Assembly (NCBI GenBank): GCA_903828955.1
Contig: CAIKOA010000005.1
Location: 1 to 45,884 of the forward strand
DNA from: an uncultured Microcaldota archaeon
GTDB lineage: Archaea > Micrarchaeota > Micrarchaeia > Anstonellales > Bilamarchaeaceae
Length of the DNA stretch: 45,884 nt
Direction of reading: 5' to 3'
Position 1 is the first letter of the stretch, and the number at the start of each line of letters is the position of its first letter. The translations under genes were made by a program, and so were the position numbers. Shown piece after piece: positions 6,644 to 45,884 of the stretch. Under the pieces are notes generated by a model. That model had not been told where the DNA came from. It did not search any database and worked only from the letters and a program-made list of their open reading frames with translations.

Positions 6644-6664
6644 TACTAATTGAATAGAATGCTC

Positions 6665-7255
6665 ATGAGCAAAAAGAGGAGGGAGGGGCTTGCGATAAGG
6701 CTTGCGCCCATACTTAATGGCATGAAAAGGGGACCTGCGGTTATTCTTCCTAAGGACATAGGAACAGTTATTGGGTATACTGGAATTGGGAAGAAGAGCA
6801 TTGTTGTTGAAGCCGGGGCAGGTTCAGGTTTTGCGACCGTGATACTTGGAAACATGGTGAAGAAGATCACCTCCTACGAATGGAACGAGGAATTTGCAAA
6901 CATTGCAAAAGAGAATGCGAAAAGGGCGGGCTTGCGCAATGTGAAGATAAAACTGGGGGATGTCCGCGAAGGGATTGAAGAGAAAGAAGTTGATTTGGTC
7001 CTTCTGGACATGCCGGAAGCAGATAAGGTCGTCCCGCATGCGCACTCTGCATTGAAAAGCGGCGGATTCTTAGTCGGCTTCCTTCCGCATTTTGAGCAGG
7101 CAAAATCTTTTTGGATGGAATGCGAGAAGGCGGGCTTCGGGGATAAATTCATGCTGGAATCCATTGTGCGCGAATACGAAGTGCGGGAATTCGGGGTGCG
7201 GCCAAAGCACATCGGGCTCACGCACACGGCGTTCCTTGTGTTTGCGAGGAAGTAA
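6665..7255 (+). CDS. trmI: TrmI-like tRNA (adenine-58-N1) methyltransferase, short form
   Basis: A 196-aa SAM-dependent methyltransferase resembling TrmI/Gcd14, which makes m1A58 (m1A57/58 in archaea) in the tRNA T-loop. Seen: KRGPAVILPKDIGTVIGYTGI, SAM motif I VVEAGAGSGFATVILG (about residues 47-62), motif LVLLDMPEADKVV, and the family C-terminus EVREFGVRPKHIGLTHTAFLVFARK. Normal TrmI has about 100 residues before motif I, including a small beta domain; here there are fewer than 50, so that domain is absent or much reduced. The upstream region is promoter-like and cannot supply it. Start selection follows the TATA box at 6634-6643. Confidence 0.8.
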   Translation: MSKKRREGLAIRLAPILNGMKRGPAVILPKDIGTVIGYTGIGKKSIVVEAGAGSGFATVILGNMVKKITSYEWNEEFANIAKENAKRAGLRNVKIKLGDVREGIEEKEVDLVLLDMPEADKVVPHAHSALKSGGFLVGFLPHFEQAKSFWMECEKAGFGDKFMLESIVREYEVREFGVRPKHIGLTHTAFLVFARK

Positions 7256-27293: not shown

Positions 27294-30200
27294 TCACATA
27301 AAGTCCGAAAGCCCGGTCTGCTTTATTTTATCATCTTCGAAAACGCTGTGTATTTCCTTTTCAAGGAGCGCAAGCCTCTGCCCCAGGTAGGCGGGAAGTG
27401 CGTACTTCTCCACCATATTTTGCGAAATTGAGAGGTATTTGATTATTCCCCCCTTATTGATTGTAAGGAGGAGCTTCCCTCCGCACTTTGTGCATTTTCC
27501 TGCGAGCGGAACCCTCCTGTAAATAAGGTTGCAGTCGCTGCACCGGAAATTCTGCCTGGAAAAGGAGCGCAAATTTCCATAGAGGTCCGGGATGAAGTGG
27601 CTCAGGATGAGCCTTTCCGCAGTGTCCCGCAAATCCACCGGGCGCAATTTTGCATGCAGTTCGAACTCTGCCGCAATTTTCTCCGGGATTGAGCCCAGTT
27701 CCACATACATTGTTTTCATCGGCCCTTCGTTCAGGGTCGCGGTATCGTGGGTGAAGAGGAGGTCTCCATATTGCTCGTCTTTTCCGAGCAAATCCTTTAC
27801 GGTGGGCAATTTTACGTCTCCGGGGTACGCATTGCGCTCAGCCGCCTTGTAGAATTCCAGCGGATATTCATGGACCACTTCCATGCAATGCACTTCATCA
27901 TCCACTTCGCGCGGATCTATTTGGGGGGTAAGAGTCAGGGGTGCATCCATTGTTCCTCCGCGCTTATCCGAAAGGTAAGAGCGAGAGAAGTTCAGGAGGC
28001 AATCCAGCAAAAGCATGATGGAGTCTTCGTCTCCATCACATTGGTGGGAAACAAGCCCGGAAGCGACAACCGTGTGGTGGGGGGCGACCGTAACAGAATA
28101 GGTGTAATCCTCCTTTGCCTGGACTATTTTCTTGGAGATTATTTCATCGACGAAAACATCTCCTTCCACTTCCCTGCGTGCTGCGCGGGATTTTGAGGCC
28201 CATTCTGCAGCCTCCGCCTTTGCCTTTTCACCTTTTTGCAGGGCAAAACCGACCTTTTCTATAAATTCTGCTGCGGATTTCCCGTACATCCTAAGCTTGA
28301 ATGAGTGCAATCTTACGGGATGCCCATAAAATTCCGGAATGGGTCCTGTATTGATTTCTCGGTCGCTTTCGCTCCAGGAGTGGATTATTCCAAGCCTCCC
28401 CAGAAGGAAAGAGAATCCTTCCAGAAGTTCGCGGCTAACCGAAGTGCAGTTCACTTCCAGGGTTGAACCCAGTGAAGAGGAGCCGTCTCCGCTAAAGTAT
28501 CCGTTTAGGAAAGCGGCGATCTTGCGTTCTGGAAGCGATAAAACAAAGGAAGGAACGCGCTTCTTCTTTGCGCCTGCGCCAACCTTCAGCCCTTCAAAGA
28601 AAGAATAAACCAGCCTTGAGCAGATTGTAACTGAAGATGATGTTTCGTTTGGCTTTATCCCAAAAACGCGGTTTATTTTGGTTTTTATAAGGTTCCGCAT
28701 TTCTTTTTTGGAAGCGGCAAAGGAAACCTGGTAATGAGAGCCTGCCTTCCTCCTTGTGTGGCCTTCAGCCAGATAAAGGCCGAGTAAGAAGAGGAAATCT
28801 TCATCCACCGAGATCTTTCTTTTTATGGAAACAGTATCGCGTTTAGCGGCAACTTCCCATTCTTCATTATCCAAGCCCAATTTCTTCAGCAATGAAAGCG
28901 GATAGGAATTGCGGTAAACGTAATTTGTGAACGTTTTGTATCCCATTCCCGATTTTTTAGATAGGGATTTCAGATTCATTCCGGCAAATGGCTTTGATTT
29001 TGTTCTTGCAAAAACATCTTCGCTGTATTCGGAAACGTCAAAAGAATCCAAATCCTTTTCAGGAATTGAAATCTTTGCGGGAACATAAAGGCGCTCTGCG
29101 TCCATCGCCATCTTCTTCTTTCCGCAGTTGGGGAATGGGTGCTCCTTGGTAACGGTGATTTTTCTCCCGCTCTTGGTTGCTATCTCAAGCAGATGATCCT
29201 GCGTGATATGTTTGGAAATATGGGTTATTTCGGCAATCTCGAATTTCTTGGAATCCGGATTGAAAGCGAGGGTTTGAAGACCGGAGACAGAAGAGTATTC
29301 TGCGGTTCCCGCCTCGTCTTTCAGCGCATTCGCTCCCAAATTCTGTTCAACGAATTCCTTCAGTTTAGCCATTTTCCAGCTTCCGTTCTCCAGAATTGGG
29401 ATTGTGGTTTCACCTGAGAAGCAATTCCTCCTTTTTGCAGTATGGAAATAGGGGTGCCCATAGCCTACGTTTGCATTAGTGAATCCAATTATCCTGCAGA
29501 GGACCCCTGCGGAAGTGTGCGGGGAAAGCCCCACTGCAAGGTGCCCGAATAAATCCTCCCTATTCCTAAAATTGTAGAAAGGCGGCAGGCCGTAAATATG
29601 CACAAGCGAATCATCTACGAATGCTGCAATGCGCGCGATGTAGTCCATTCCATGCGAAGAGACCACTATATCCTGCTGGAAAAGCGCAACCACTTGATTT
29701 GCATTAGTGATCGGGGCGCCCTTGCAATCAGTAGTATAGCCGAGCGCCTTAATTCCCTCAGGAGTCTGCCCGATTTCTGAAATCCGGAAATGGGTAATCG
29801 GAGTATCGGTCGCATCAAATCTGCAGGTTCCGTCCTTGAAAACGAAAATGTCGTGCTTTGCGCGCAAAAAGCCTTTTTCCAGCCTTTCCGGAACCTTCCT
29901 ATGGCTGAACAATCCTTTCACTCCATTTACTTCCGAAGGAGTGAATCCGAGTTCCTCGCGCGCCTTCTCGAATAAATCCACGAGCGGAACCGGCCTGCGG
30001 TCATAAAAGAGGGCGGGCATGTCGCAGTGTTTCTTTTCAGTTGTCACTGCCCCGCATTTCTGGCATACCCTTTCCGGCTTTGCCTCCTCTCCGCAGGAAT
30101 GGCAGCGGGAAAAGAACGTGAGCGCCTTGCAGGAAGCGCAGCGGTAGCGTGCAACTTCCGCGTTTATGGATTGCTCGCCTTCGCGGGCTTTAAGCCCCCT

Positions 30201-32030
30201 GTACCTCTTGATTATGCTCCTATTCTTCTCTGAGGCGGTCGGGAAGAGGATGTGCGTTTTCCCTTCCATTGCGCGCTCCTTTGCTTTCTCAGGCCTTCCC
30301 ATGCGCCCGCCAATGTAGGTGGGAGCCTTATTCCGGATTGTAATCCCGGAAAGTTCAGAAATGTTTTCAAGAACCGAAAGAGAATCGTTTATTTGTGGGG
30401 GTGCCCCTATCTCTTTTCCTTTTAGCATCCCAAGCACAGAAAGGACGGAATATGCGTCATCCCCTCCAAGTTCAATCTTTCCTTCCTGGGAAACCGAATG
30501 CTCAACCAATAAATCCTCGAGAACCATTTTCCCTTCCGGGGAATTCGGAAGCGAAAGCCCGCTTATTTCCCCGGAATCCATCCTGAGCTCCCCTTTGGAA
30601 AGGAAAGAAGGAAGTATGCGCAACTGCTCAATCGAAATATCCCCCCAGTGATTGGTGAAATCCGGGTGCAGGGGAATCGAATATTTGCGCGAAAGCTCGA
30701 AGGCCTCCTTTGCGCCGAAGTTTCCTTCCGGAATTTCCGCGCCTCCTGCCTTCGCCTCCTGGACCCACCATTCCGAACAATAGCCGCAAGGCATAAGCGG
30801 ATGGTTGGTTTTGAGGAAATCCCCGAAAGTAATCAGCATGTCCCCGAGGAAAAGTATTTTGGAAACCCTTGGCTTAAGTTCCTCGGCCTGCGCGATTGAA
30901 TGGACTTTGAGCACCGAGCCATCCATCAATTTCACAACTGGGGGCTCAATGGTGTCGCAAACGGTCACCACGCAGCCTTTCCCGGGCCGCTCCACCTTCA
31001 TGTGCGTGCCGTTTGCAATGAAGGAATCCAGCAAAATCATTGTTGCTGGGTGAACATTCCGCGCCATGATTCCGTTTGTGCGGCTTCTCCCATAGCGGAG
31101 GCGGAAACCTCCCTTGGCCATCGGGTATGCGAATACGGGCCTTCCTGCAACAAGCCCTTCCAAATAAGTGGGGTCGGGCTTAATCTCCACTTTGTCTTCC
31201 TTCTTCTTTACCTTGATTACGTTCTGGAGCCAGTCCCATTCAAGTCCGAACTTCTTTGCATATTTCAAAACCTTGGGGGCTTTTGCGGCCATCCCTTCGC
31301 AAACTACCAGCGGAACCCCTCCGCGCACCCTGTTGCTCTTTATTCGCGCCAAGTCCCTGTGCACGGAAACTTCCGCATCTTCAGTTGGGTCCCCGTCTAT
31401 GCATACCGGGCAGTTCTTTATGATGTGCTCAACGTGCTCATCAGGGGGCTTATATTGGAGGTGGTGGCAGCGGTATTCGTAAACATTTACCTCTTCCACA
31501 TAGCGCGCAACTTCCTTGTCTGTAGGGCGGTAATCGCCAACCCCTGCGAGCTTGCGCGCATAATCTGCAAGCGCAACCGAAAGCGCGGCAACCGTTCCCC
31601 CTGCGCTCCGGATTGGGCCTGAGAAGAATACGGAAACATAGCTGCTCCCGTCCGGGTTCTCGTTTATGCGCACGTCCGAAATTCCTTCAGTTGGCGCAAC
31701 GAGCACTCCTTCGGTAAGTATGCTTACCCCTGTGCGCACCGCCTGCTCAATGAGGGTGCGTTGATCCCCTTGTATTATCTCCCCTTTTACGATTTTCTCA
31801 ACGACTACGAATGCGGCTTCGGTGCGGGGCATCCCTGAATGCTCAAGCTCGCGGATAATTCCGGAAATTCCGCGCGGGCCAACCAGTTCCTCAACGCGCG
31901 CGGCAACATCCTTTGCAATGGGAACTTCCACGTGCTTCTCCGGGTCAAATCCCTTTGCGCGGCATGCTTGAGCTAGGGAATATGCTTTTTCGAGTTCCGT
32001 TTTCAAAATCTCAAAGTATTCCTGGCCCAT
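27294..32030 (-). CDS. polC: DNA polymerase D large subunit DP2 with intein
   Basis: A 1578-aa precursor; 1117 aa remain after removal of the 461-aa intein (residues 870-1330). DP2 is the catalytic subunit of archaeal family D DNA polymerase and acts with DP1 in replication. Recognised parts: N-terminal EYFEILKTELEKAY; conserved IRSAGGTVAALSVALADYARK; RLRYGRSRTNGIMARNVHPATMILLD; Cys zinc modules CASCKALTFFSRCHSCG and VCQKCG; the active site just after the intein, CDGDEDSIMLLLDCLLNF, with Asp1332 and Asp1334; and a C-terminal zinc module CSDCNLIYRRVPLAGKCTKCGG. ATG 32030 follows the DP1 stop by 4 nt, and GAGGTGA at that stop is its Shine-Dalgarno site, so DP1 and DP2 are one operon. Confidence 0.96.
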   Translation of the reverse strand: MGQEYFEILKTELEKAYSLAQACRAKGFDPEKHVEVPIAKDVAARVEELVGPRGISGIIRELEHSGMPRTEAAFVVVEKIVKGEIIQGDQRTLIEQAVRTGVSILTEGVLVAPTEGISDVRINENPDGSSYVSVFFSGPIRSAGGTVAALSVALADYARKLAGVGDYRPTDKEVARYVEEVNVYEYRCHHLQYKPPDEHVEHIIKNCPVCIDGDPTEDAEVSVHRDLARIKSNRVRGGVPLVVCEGMAAKAPKVLKYAKKFGLEWDWLQNVIKVKKKEDKVEIKPDPTYLEGLVAGRPVFAYPMAKGGFRLRYGRSRTNGIMARNVHPATMILLDSFIANGTHMKVERPGKGCVVTVCDTIEPPVVKLMDGSVLKVHSIAQAEELKPRVSKILFLGDMLITFGDFLKTNHPLMPCGYCSEWWVQEAKAGGAEIPEGNFGAKEAFELSRKYSIPLHPDFTNHWGDISIEQLRILPSFLSKGELRMDSGEISGLSLPNSPEGKMVLEDLLVEHSVSQEGKIELGGDDAYSVLSVLGMLKGKEIGAPPQINDSLSVLENISELSGITIRNKAPTYIGGRMGRPEKAKERAMEGKTHILFPTASEKNRSIIKRYRGLKAREGEQSINAEVARYRCASCKALTFFSRCHSCGEEAKPERVCQKCGAVTTEKKHCDMPALFYDRRPVPLVDLFEKAREELGFTPSEVNGVKGLFSHRKVPERLEKGFLRAKHDIFVFKDGTCRFDATDTPITHFRISEIGQTPEGIKALGYTTDCKGAPITNANQVVALFQQDIVVSSHGMDYIARIAAFVDDSLVHIYGLPPFYNFRNREDLFGHLAVGLSPHTSAGVLCRIIGFTNANVGYGHPYFHTAKRRNCFSGETTIPILENGSWKMAKLKEFVEQNLGANALKDEAGTAEYSSVSGLQTLAFNPDSKKFEIAEITHISKHITQDHLLEIATKSGRKITVTKEHPFPNCGKKKMAMDAERLYVPAKISIPEKDLDSFDVSEYSEDVFARTKSKPFAGMNLKSLSKKSGMGYKTFTNYVYRNSYPLSLLKKLGLDNEEWEVAAKRDTVSIKRKISVDEDFLFLLGLYLAEGHTRRKAGSHYQVSFAASKKEMRNLIKTKINRVFGIKPNETSSSVTICSRLVYSFFEGLKVGAGAKKKRVPSFVLSLPERKIAAFLNGYFSGDGSSSLGSTLEVNCTSVSRELLEGFSFLLGRLGIIHSWSESDREINTGPIPEFYGHPVRLHSFKLRMYGKSAAEFIEKVGFALQKGEKAKAEAAEWASKSRAARREVEGDVFVDEIISKKIVQAKEDYTYSVTVAPHHTVVASGLVSHQCDGDEDSIMLLLDCLLNFSRSYLSDKRGGTMDAPLTLTPQIDPREVDDEVHCMEVVHEYPLEFYKAAERNAYPGDVKLPTVKDLLGKDEQYGDLLFTHDTATLNEGPMKTMYVELGSIPEKIAAEFELHAKLRPVDLRDTAERLILSHFIPDLYGNLRSFSRQNFRCSDCNLIYRRVPLAGKCTKCGGKLLLTINKGGIIKYLSISQNMVEKYALPAYLGQRLALLEKEIHSVFEDDKIKQTGLSDFM
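28041..29423 (-). other. Intein in DP2 with LAGLIDADG endonuclease
   Basis: A 461-residue in-frame insertion between Asn869 and Cys1331 of the DP2 precursor. It begins CFSGETTIPIL (Cys1 nucleophile, block A), has ITVTKEHPF (block B, with the usual T-x-x-H), and ends TVAPHHTVVASGLVSHQ followed by Cys+1 (blocks F and G). The final intein residue is Gln where most inteins have Asn; Gln has been described for PolII inteins of Pyrococcus. Two LAGLIDADG motifs carry acids Glu220 (LLGLYLAEG) and Asp313 (LNGYFSGDG), so a homing endonuclease appears intact. No frameshift was seen. Removal would recreate RN-CDGDED exactly at the polymerase active site. Confidence 0.95.
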
Positions 32031-32034
32031 TTTT

Positions 32035-33582
32035 TCACCTCGTAAAATCAAGCGTGCGCAGGCGCTTGCCCTTGAATTCGTAAAGCGGGACTTTTGCAGG
32101 GGTTGGAACGTGGCCCTGCTTTTGCTGGAAATCGGTCGTGTCCTGGAAAGTCCCGGAATTAATAATCAGCGTTCCGCGGTAGTTGCTGTACCCGTTCTTG
32201 TGCACGTGCCCGAAATGGACAATGTCCGGAACGCGTTCTATAACCATATAATCCAGTTTCTCCGGGACGATTGCATTCCCCCCGAACATTGGGGAAAGGT
32301 GCCTTCTTTTGAGGCATTCCTCCATCACTTTTTCAGGGTGGTTGTAATTCAGGTTGGAGAGGGTTGAAATCCAGCTGTCTGCGGAAGTGCCGTGGTAAAA
32401 GAGGTGCTCGAATCCATCTATTGAAACAACGGAGGGGCTTCCAACTTTGATTACGTCCCCGCGAAAAACCTCATCCGGAAGCGCGGGCATCGGCTCCGCG
32501 CGCCTTACCGCATCGTGGTTGCCCGGGGAAACGATTACTTCGATATAATCCGGGAGCTGGTCCACAAAATCCGAAAACATGGAGTATTGCTTGAAAATGT
32601 CAGAAACAACCAGGTCTTTTTCCTGCTCCGGGTAGATTCCGATTCCATCAACGAGGTCTCCGGCCACGAAAATGTATTTCACCCTTCCCGCGAGTTCGGG
32701 GTTCGCGCTTTTTCCGTTGATCCATTCAACGAACCGATTGAAATATTCGTCCAGGAAATGCCTGCTTCCAAAATGCAGGTCGGAGAGATATACTGCCGCA
32801 AGGTCGTGCGGGGATTCCTTGGGCTCGCGCGCAAGGGGGATGTCCGGCCACTCGAAATCCTCTGCGATGATGAATGCTTCTAGAACTTTTCCCTCTATTG
32901 CGATTGTGTCGTCGCGCACGATTTTCTTGGCGTTTTCGAAAACCCTCTCGTCCTTCTGGGAAAGTATTACCTTGAAATTGCCGGTGAGGTCCTCAACTTC
33001 CAGCATCAGGTTGCCGTTTTTCGTGGTGCGGATTTCGGAAACGAAAACGATTACGCGCACTTTCTGCTGAAGGAGGGATTTCATCGAGGAAAGGTCGGCT
33101 TCTGTATATTTTCCCGGATACGCGCGGAGCATCGCTGAAAGCCTTTCAAAACGGTTGCGGAAATATGCGACGAAATCCTCCACTTCGCCTTTTGTGCGGG
33201 AATTCCCGGTAACGTCCAGTTTTTCCCGGATTTCTATTTTTGCGGAGTATTCCTTTGCGAGTGGGTGGAATGAGGGCAACCCGGAAACCGCATGAGTGGG
33301 CTTCTCTTCCTGCATTGAAGGGGAAGGCTCATCGGAAATCGAGGATTCGATTGGAGATGGCTCGCTTTCCTTAATTTCTGAAACCTTCTGCGCCTGGTAG
33401 GAAAGCTCTTCTGAGGCAGCTTCTTCCTTCTTCTTGAGAATAAGGGAAACGTCTTCAATTGTTATGAATTTTTTTTCGAGTTGGAGGAGTTCTTCATCCG
33501 GGATTTTCTTTTCCTCTATGAGTTTTTCTGCATCAAGCGTGAGCCGTATGCCCTTCTTTTTCAGTTCTTCCATCCCACCCAT
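32035..33582 (-). CDS. polB: DNA polymerase D small subunit DP1
   Basis: A 515-aa DP1, the Mre11-like 3'-5' exonuclease subunit of family D polymerase. Layout: an N-terminal helical region (1-60), a linker rich in Ser, Glu and Pro (60-110), an OB-like domain (about 175-255, VRVIVFVSEIRTTKNGNLMLEVEDLTG), and the calcineurin-like phosphodiesterase domain with SDLHFGS (Asp268, His270), FVAGDLVDGIG, VSPGNHD, FYHGTS and HFGHVHKNG. All metal ligands look intact, so proofreading activity is expected. A TATA-like GTTTTATTCC about 25 bp upstream supports ATG 33582; ATG 33573 is possible. It is the first gene of the DP1-DP2 operon. Confidence 0.96.
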   Translation of the reverse strand: MGGMEELKKKGIRLTLDAEKLIEEKKIPDEELLQLEKKFITIEDVSLILKKKEEAASEELSYQAQKVSEIKESEPSPIESSISDEPSPSMQEEKPTHAVSGLPSFHPLAKEYSAKIEIREKLDVTGNSRTKGEVEDFVAYFRNRFERLSAMLRAYPGKYTEADLSSMKSLLQQKVRVIVFVSEIRTTKNGNLMLEVEDLTGNFKVILSQKDERVFENAKKIVRDDTIAIEGKVLEAFIIAEDFEWPDIPLAREPKESPHDLAAVYLSDLHFGSRHFLDEYFNRFVEWINGKSANPELAGRVKYIFVAGDLVDGIGIYPEQEKDLVVSDIFKQYSMFSDFVDQLPDYIEVIVSPGNHDAVRRAEPMPALPDEVFRGDVIKVGSPSVVSIDGFEHLFYHGTSADSWISTLSNLNYNHPEKVMEECLKRRHLSPMFGGNAIVPEKLDYMVIERVPDIVHFGHVHKNGYSNYRGTLIINSGTFQDTTDFQQKQGHVPTPAKVPLYEFKGKRLRTLDFTR

Positions 33583-33654: not shown

Positions 33655-33900
33655 CTATTTCTTCATGCTTTCCAGCGCGCTCATTATGCTCCAGATCTGC
33701 ATGCGCGCGTGCGGGGGCATGTTCACGTCCTCGCTTACGGATTCGATCAGATAAATCGCGGCGCTCACTTTTACCGTGAGCTCGTCTTCGGATTGCAACC
33801 GGTCTTTTGACTCGGTAAGCGCCCTGCGTATATTCTTTGGAACTGAAGAATCTGAGATTACAGCATCAATAAGTTCCACAATCTCTCCAAGCTTTGCCAT
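33655..33900 (-). CDS. UPF0147 family protein
   Basis: An 81-aa archaeal protein of family UPF0147, whose function is unknown. The hallmark is VISDSSVPKNIRRALTESKDRL followed by VKVSAAIYLIESVSEDVNMPPHARMQIWSIMSALES. An upstream TTG at 33963 would lengthen it by 21 residues, but those codons lie inside the 3' exon and intron of tRNA-Arg, so they are a tRNA shadow. The GAGGT at 33909-33913 is 8 nt before ATG 33900 (and 2 nt before ATG 33906), favouring 33900. It lies 24 bp after the tRNA, so it may be transcribed with it or from AT-rich DNA inside the intron. Confidence 0.88.
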   Translation of the reverse strand: MAKLGEIVELIDAVISDSSVPKNIRRALTESKDRLQSEDELTVKVSAAIYLIESVSEDVNMPPHARMQIWSIMSALESMKK

Positions 33901-33924
33901 TTGCATCAACCTCTGCGAGTATAG

Positions 33925-34033
33925 CGGGCCCGACGGGACTTTCACATATTTTGGATTTTCCAAAATTAATGTTTTGAACCCGTGACCTACTGCTTAGAAG
34001 GCAGTCGCGCTATCCAGGCTGCGCTACGGGCCC
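33925..34033 (-). tRNA. tRNA-Arg(UCU) with T-loop intron
   Basis: The mature tRNA is 75 nt: exon 1 is 34033-33973 (61 nt) and exon 2 is 33938-33925 (14 nt). Acceptor GGGCCCG/CGGGCCC pairs perfectly across the intron. The D-arm is GCGC/GCGC, anticodon stem ACTGC/GCAGT with loop CTTCTAA (anticodon TCT), T-stem ACGGG/CCCGT, and spliced T-loop TTCAAAT. The discriminator is G; CCA is not encoded. Without removing the intron the T-arm cannot close, so ordinary scans may miss the gene. The upstream TATA-like TTTAATATTAAG (near 34050-34060 on this strand) fits the expected start. Confidence 0.93.
33939..33972 (-). other. 34-nt bulge-helix-bulge intron in tRNA T-loop
   Basis: The fold is canonical. 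The exon T-stem (GGG/CCC) is the outer helix. TTCA of the T-loop pairs with TGAA near the intron 3' end (4-bp central helix). The 3-nt bulge AAA holds the 5' splice site (AA|A), and the 3-nt bulge AGT holds the 3' splice site (AG|T). The inner part pairs CAT/ATG, then, after a 2-nt bulge, ATTTTGG/CCAAAAT. Splicing joins TTCAAA to T, giving a normal 7-nt T-loop; the site is between positions 59 and 60. Confidence 0.92.
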
Positions 34034-34043
34034 GCGTGGGGTT

Positions 34044-34060
34044 ATTTACTTAATATTAAA
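34044..34060 (-). promoter_or_regulatory. Promoter of tRNA-Arg
   Basis: The A/T-only stretch here reads TTTAATATTAAGTAAAT on the minus strand, placing a TATA-like core about 22-27 bp before the mature tRNA 5' end at 34033. The first copy of the 16-bp direct repeat (34061-34076) directly abuts it and may act as an upstream element. Confidence 0.45.
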
Positions 34061-34333
34061 TTAAAAGCTTTCCTTAGGGGAGGGGTATGTTTTCGGATAG
34101 ATAGGGAAACCGGATATGGGAGGTTGCTTGGGCTGAAGCACAAACCGGATTGCAATATTCATTAATACTATCAGGGGATGAGGGGGGTAGGTTCCACCAG
34201 GCGGTCAAATTGAGTAGCAAATAGACGAGTATCAATTTCCGACCTTCGGTCGGGTTTGCTACTCGATTTGAGGGGGAAACTTCCCCCTGCATGGTGTGCG
34301 CTCCTCCTGTTGGACTCTTAAAAGCTTTCCTTA
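34061..34333. other. Structured noncoding segment flanked by 16-bp direct repeats
   Basis: Exact copies of TTAAAAGCTTTCCTTA lie at 34061-34076 and 34318-34333, 257 bp apart. Between them the right half is highly structured: arms 34205-34221 and 34255-34271 pair over 17 positions with one mismatch or wobble, enclosing the hairpin CCGACC-TTC-GGTCGG (34239-34253), and a G5/C5 hairpin follows at 34272-34287. Terminal inverted repeats are not seen. It lies beside tRNA-Arg. It may be a small RNA gene, a nonautonomous element or a remnant of an insertion. The short frames on both strands (34074-34292 minus; 34291-34521 plus) do not look like proteins, although AGGAGGAG precedes the minus-strand ATG. 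Confidence 0.5.
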
Positions 34334-45339: not shown

Positions 45340-45884
45340 TCGCCTATCCCCACAGCAAGCTATGGGGCATTACGGCTCGGCGAAATCAATCAACCTCAGC
45401 TGTTCCCCCTTTCCTCCCTGTTTCTTGATGTAGTTCCTGATTACTCCTGCATTCGAGCCTTCTCCTACTGTTGCGATATATCCGCCATCGCCCCAAAATT
45501 CTCCGCCCCACAGTTCCTTTTTTATCTCTGGGAATTCATTGAACATTTCTCTGGCAGTTATGCTCTTGGTGATCTGGATTACTCTTGACGGAGAGTATCT
45601 GGGGGCGGCTTGCACAAGTATGTGCACATGGTCTTCATCAAAGCCTATTGTTTCTGCTGAGATATAGTACCTTTTCTCTATTTCGAGCATGATTTTCTTA
45701 ATGTGCTCTGCATACTTCTCCTTCATGAAAATATCCTTCCTGTATTTCACTACGAAGCACATGTGGTACTTTATCTCGTACACCTTGTGGCAGGCACGTA
45801 TGACGTCACGCATGGTATAAAAACTACGCGAGGATTTATTTAGCCACTGCAAGCAGTGGGGAACTAACCCCAACTAGGATTAGA
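45340..45884 (-). mobile_element. IS200-type element (runs to window edge)
   Basis: A TnpA-only element of the IS200/IS605 class, which moves as single-stranded DNA. The tnpA gene is flanked by subterminal hairpins. On the left (right end by tnpA orientation) arms CCCCACAGC and GCTATGGGG (45348-45356/45359-45367) pair with one mismatch. On the right (left end) CCACTG/CAGTGG with loop CAAG (45844-45859) is followed by GGGG/CCCC (45858-45861/45868-45871). TnpB is absent. The exact right boundary cannot be seen and may lie beyond the window. Confidence 0.75.
45370..45813 (-). CDS. tnpA: IS200/IS605 family transposase TnpA
   Basis: A 147-aa Y1 HUH transposase. It begins MRDVIRACHKVYEIKYHMCFVVKYRKDIF. 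The HUH site is FDEDHVHILVQAAP with His62 and His64, and the nucleophile is Tyr128 in VIRNYIKKQGG, as in IS200 transposases (family length about 140-150). All expected parts are present, so the enzyme looks intact. ATG 45813 is used; the upstream frame through the hairpin is not family-like. It cuts and joins single strands at the subterminal hairpins. Confidence 0.94.
   Translation of the reverse strand: MRDVIRACHKVYEIKYHMCFVVKYRKDIFMKEKYAEHIKKIMLEIEKRYYISAETIGFDEDHVHILVQAAPRYSPSRVIQITKSITAREMFNEFPEIKKELWGGEFWGDGGYIATVGEGSNAGVIRNYIKKQGGKGEQLRLIDFAEP

Follow-up and report, generated by a model that had tools for sequence, protein, structure and literature searches.

The tRNA-Arg(UCU) gene of this Micrarchaeota genome is interrupted within the T-loop and is almost certainly a functional single-copy gene, whose bulge-helix-bulge (BHB) intron at the non-canonical position 59/60 is predicted to be removed by EndA and RtcB. 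The gene lies on the minus strand of the window, the term used here for the whole stretch of 45,884 nucleotides analysed. The gene, its parts and its surroundings are located as follows:

33925–34033, minus strand: pre-tRNA-Arg(UCU), 109 nt, 75 nt once the intron is removed (sequence, Rfam, ARAGORN)
33973–34033, minus strand: exon 1, tRNA positions 1–59, 61 nt, with the 3' end UUCAAA (sequence, survey-pattern coordinates)
33996–33998, minus strand: anticodon UCU (sequence, ARAGORN on the intron-less form)
33939–33972, minus strand: intron, 34 nt, between positions 59 and 60 (sequence, ARAGORN, alignment with five genus members)
33925–33938, minus strand: exon 2, comprising U60, the T-stem 3' strand CCCGU, the acceptor 3' strand CGGGCCC and G73 (sequence)
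34049–34067, minus strand: TATA-like AT-rich stretch about 25 nt upstream of the tRNA, a putative promoter (sequence)
33655–33903, minus strand: UPF0147 family gene, 21 nt downstream of the tRNA (Pfam PF03685, synteny)

Read on the minus strand from 34033 to 33925, the transcript begins with GGGCCCG UA GCGC AGCCUGGAUA GCGC G ACUGC CUUCUAA GCAGU AGGUC ACGGG UUCAAA, continues with the intron ACAUUAAUUUUGGAAAAUCCAAAAUAUGUGAAAG and ends with U CCCGU CGGGCCC G. The acceptor, D, anticodon and T stems are all complete, and the spliced product has a normal mature length of 75 nt and the T-loop UUCAAAU. ARAGORN made no call on the unspliced gene and reported tRNA-Arg(tct) after in silico removal of the intron; thus, a complete cloverleaf is restored by intron removal. 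The coordinates, strand and anatomy given in an earlier sequence-only reading, which had described a tRNA-Arg(UCU) with a 34-nt T-loop intron at 59/60, were right as judged from the sequence and from ARAGORN on the spliced form.

The missing ARAGORN call on the gene as it stands and its low score with the Rfam tRNA model (36.0 bits, with the T-arm unaligned) would also suit a decayed pseudogene carrying a chance insertion, another tRNA doing the work. This explanation is extremely improbable, since none of the stems is damaged and all have been preserved, with compensatory changes, across six divergent genomes. Moreover, among the tRNA genes found in the source genome (1.22 Mb in 35 contigs, of which the window is one, and 95.6% complete) there was no other UCU anticodon; an intact second tRNA-Arg(UCU), which would have spoken against the earlier reading, was thus not found, although a second UCU gene could lie in the unassembled part.

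The interrupted gene carries a strict hBHBh' motif in its sequence: two 3-nt bulges on opposite strands, a 4-bp helix between them and flanking helices. The outer helix is the T-stem ACGGG/CCCGU, the central four pairs are UUCA/UGAA, and the inner helix starts from CAU/AUG. EndA cleaves after the second nucleotide of a 3-nt bulge. The elements of the motif are:

33975–33978, minus strand: 5' strand of the central helix, UUCA, positions 54–57 (sequence, genus alignment, base 57 co-variation)
33941–33944, minus strand: 3' strand of the central helix, UGAA, within the intron (sequence, genus alignment, base 57 co-variation)
33972–33974, minus strand: 5' bulge AAA, formed by A58, A59 and intron nucleotide 1, with a predicted cut after the second nucleotide (sequence)
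33938–33940, minus strand: 3' bulge AGU, formed by the last two intron nucleotides and U60, with a predicted cut after the second nucleotide (sequence)
33945–33971, minus strand: inner intron stem-loop, starting with CAU/AUG (folding, genus alignment)

The whole precursor folded better than all of its 200 shuffled versions (z = -4.7), and the T-arm with the intron had a z of -4.1. In both cases the 4-bp central helix was not formed by the energy model, being left open in the minimum-free-energy fold; energy folding was therefore rejected as a proof of the BHB, and the support for the predicted central helix is comparative. In the alignment of six genomes of the genus, 100% of the cells were paired and no pair was broken, which bears out the perfect BHB claimed earlier. 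The T-stem formed across the intron differs between the window and the other genus members by two two-sided (compensatory) changes. Only one-sided changes, from U-A to U-G and from A-U to G-U, were present in the BHB helices, and the central helix is nearly invariant within the genus, with weak co-variation.

In the comparison of the locus in related genomes, proposed at the outset, each of the six genus members examined carried the UCU intron at the identical position. Since the neighbouring DP1 proteins of the window and the other members are only about 61–65% identical, the intron is an old feature of the genus. The UPF0147 gene is a conserved neighbour, and the interrupted tRNA lies directly upstream of it in all six. 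Outside the genus, three tRNA-Arg(UCU) genes (L037, L042 and L043) carry their intron at 37/38 and leave the T-loop intact, and a fourth (L045) has no intron; the uninterrupted T-loops of all four read UUCAAAU, the very junction predicted for the spliced product. The gene L051/L138 had been scored as intact by an anticodon-stem script because CATAT pairs at four of five positions with the T-stem; this call was rejected, as by eye the gene is interrupted. Outside the family, the T-loop of the tRNA-Arg(UCU) of genome G059 (L073) holds a longer intron whose motif is relaxed.

The intron sequence is partly conserved in the genus, including a UUUUGGA...UCCAAAA hairpin, which could mean that the intron has been retained because it has a role of its own, perhaps as a stable or circular small RNA, rather than merely tolerated. 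However, conservation falls on the segments that form the BHB and the inner stem, the length varies (the intron of L039 is much longer), and other 59/60 genes have introns with no sequence relationship to the UCU intron, so such a role is very unlikely.

Splicing of pre-tRNA-Arg(UCU) by the known EndA/RtcB pathway is very likely, judging from the encoded proteins. EndA (381 aa) matches the enzyme of ARMAN-2 (4fz2/9w2k) with 438 bits over 372 residues. It is a three-unit (epsilon) protomer in which the triad Y231/H245/K276 aligns to Y236/H251/K282 of ARMAN-2 (residues counted from the alignment) and the loop pair Y155-K156 occupies the positions of Y160-K161, so that both the triad and the ARMAN-specific loop residues are conserved. 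The roles of these residues have been described (PMC12397907, PMC6379350), and ARMAN-2 EndA, an epsilon2 enzyme, has broad specificity and cleaves introns at various tRNA positions (PMC12397907, PMC6379350, PMC4033280). The RtcB ligase is also encoded (573 bits). In the proposed pathway, the primary transcript would fold with the T-stem as the outer helix and T-loop bases 54–57 paired with the end of the intron, the EndA dimer would cut in both 3-nt bulges, and RtcB would join A59 to U60. Only after joining could the T-loop come together with the D-loop and receive its customary modifications.

The window also encodes a candidate enzyme for one such modification:

6650–7255, plus strand: TrmI-like tRNA m1A methyltransferase, 201 aa, lacking the N-terminal region (homologue alignment)

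The gene had been described as shortened, and indeed its match to 253-aa archaeal homologues sets in only at their residue 59, and in-frame stop codons lie a short way upstream; the protein does not correspond to a full-length tetrameric archaeal TrmI with an N-terminal domain. The suggestion that the intron splits the modified site, A57/A58, did not hold: exon 1 contains A57, A58 and A59 alike, the first of them paired with the intron and the second located in the 5' bulge. Archaeal TrmI has a preference for A57, and A59 governs which of the two sites, 57 or 58, is chosen (PMC7912444). It is plausible that T-loop modification would follow splicing. As an addition to the splicing pathway, the paired A57 and bulged A58 may act as a maturation gate, blocking TrmI and other T-loop enzymes so that modification comes strictly afterwards. 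The location of both bases within the BHB, the presence of a TrmI-like gene and the nearest published observation, that Pus4 of a red alga left precursors with a T-arm intron unmodified (PMC9602550), are consistent with a gate. On the other hand, archaeal TrmI accepts a T-branch minisubstrate (PMC7912444), and a fixed sequence of steps does not by itself show that a gate was selected for; we lean slightly against it.

The tRNA-Arg(CCU) gene of the same genome (start at C16:51163, minus strand) also has a 59/60 intron, with the T-stem GGGGG/CCCCC, the central helix UUCA/UGGA and the bulges AAU and UAU. This intron occurs in two of the six genomes of the genus, the other four sister genes being intron-less. 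The two carriers are not grouped together in the DP1 tree, with weak support, a pattern compatible with either gain or loss of the CCU intron. In 11 long ORFs of the window, AGA is used 41 times and AGG 157 times, and ARAGORN found no tRNA for either codon in the genome because tRNA-Arg(UCU) and tRNA-Arg(CCU) are both interrupted at 59/60. Another locus, L097 (G000:C6:18127-18225), was reported by ARAGORN as an intron-containing selenocysteine tRNA (tca); judged from its sequence, it would be a tRNA-Arg(UCG) whose intron lies in the anticodon loop.

Several other elements were noted in the window and genome. A palindromic repeat (GTAGGTTCCACYAGGCG...CCTGCATGGTG) is present at 34176–34305 on the plus strand of the window; the genome contains six exact and four near copies, several near tRNA genes and some with a nested hairpin of about 66 nt. 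Directly after one copy lies a tRNA-Lys-like 3' half (L081, G000:C6:50401-50459), with an intact tRNA-Lys(UUU) some 110 nt away. By eye, a 1585-aa ORF at 27294–32051 (minus strand of the window) looks like the large subunit of DNA polymerase D with an intein, and an ORF at 45370–45873 (minus strand) resembles an IS200/IS605-type transposase.

A survey with the pattern GGGTTCRAAN{10,40}YGRANNTCCC, using the reversed pattern as a control, showed that 59/60 introns are common in Micrarchaeota and in a second phylum, that of a Nanoarchaeota genome. The pattern matched 203 of the 301 Micrarchaeota genomes, the reversed one six. The fetched Micrarchaeota sites were tRNA-like (paired T-stem, acceptor stem, U8 and D-stem) in 59 of 69 distinct cases, versus 147 of 6900 random sites (2%), and spanned many amino acids. 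In the second phylum, 159 of 279 genomes were matched and nine of ten fetched sites were tRNA-like. The view that T-loop introns are rare and best known from Thermoproteales, held in the initial reading, is at odds with these matches.

Co-variation in the motif was tested more strongly on other genes and genomes than within the genus. Among 60 tRNA-like sites, drawn with a pattern in which the position and much of the BHB motif are set beforehand and counted without down-weighting of related genes, base 57 and its intron partner formed A-U 46 times, G-C 11 times, A-C three times and G-U never (Fisher p = 1e-9), and at 28 sites an exact 3-nt bulge was followed by three pairs of the inner helix, versus 3.7 expected from shuffling. 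Because the pattern fixes position and motif, the survey counts mean that 59/60 introns are common, not that this position is preferred over others. The chances seem about even that near-strict BHB introns at 59/60 form a common, repeatedly gained DPANN class affecting many amino acids, with 59/60 as a hotspot and splicing preceding T-loop modification; the prevalence was shown by the pattern and by sampling in two phyla, for this one position.

Non-canonical archaeal tRNA introns at 59/60 have reportedly been described by Marck and Grosjean and by Sugahara, and tRNA introns and the epsilon2 EndA of ARMAN-1 and ARMAN-2 (Micrarchaeota) are said to have been covered by Fujishima (2011) and Hirata (2012). 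The known 59/60 introns are identical to that of tRNA-Arg(UCU) in position and BHB architecture. Position 59/60 is listed among the known archaeal tRNA intron positions (PMC4090602, section 4), the T-loop has been named as an archaeal intron site (PMC6379350), and many tRNA introns of Asgard archaea are non-canonical (PMC11291895). ARMAN-1 and ARMAN-2 belong to the same phylum as the present host, with the same three-unit EndA and the ARMAN-specific loop residues conserved. Unlike in that comparison, the present genome adds a second EndA homologue (L098:3630-4112, minus strand), a single-domain protein of 160 aa about 2 kb from the three-unit EndA, with a weak domain match and a catalytic histidine seemingly absent in the alignment. 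The introns of Thermoproteales likewise have a non-canonical BHB and were gained repeatedly (PMC4090602), but there genes often carry several introns with relaxed motifs and EndA is of the (alpha-beta)2 type, whereas here the intron is single, the motif strict and EndA epsilon-type. Crenarchaeota and Nanoarchaeota are the groups named as rich sources of introns (PMC4090602), while our host belongs to Micrarchaeota; in the literature searched, which lay outside Fujishima 2011, no report of T-loop introns in Micrarchaeota was found.

The tRNA-Arg(UCU) locus is thus a well-made, conserved example of an already known class of archaeal introns, and the prevalence in two phyla is a more useful result than the locus itself. 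Because ARAGORN misses the 59/60-interrupted tRNA-Arg(UCU) and tRNA-Arg(CCU), the number of tRNAs counted in such genomes can be an underestimate; non-canonical archaeal introns are sought by tRNAscan-SE 2.0, but the BHB models it uses come from training on Crenarchaeota, Euryarchaeota and Thaumarchaeota (PMC8450103). The surveyed 59/60 introns, together with intron-less sister genes, provide material for studying how such introns are gained, how specific EndA is, and in which order splicing and T-loop modification occur. If the hotspot reading is true, splicing before T-loop modification would be imposed on many DPANN tRNAs.
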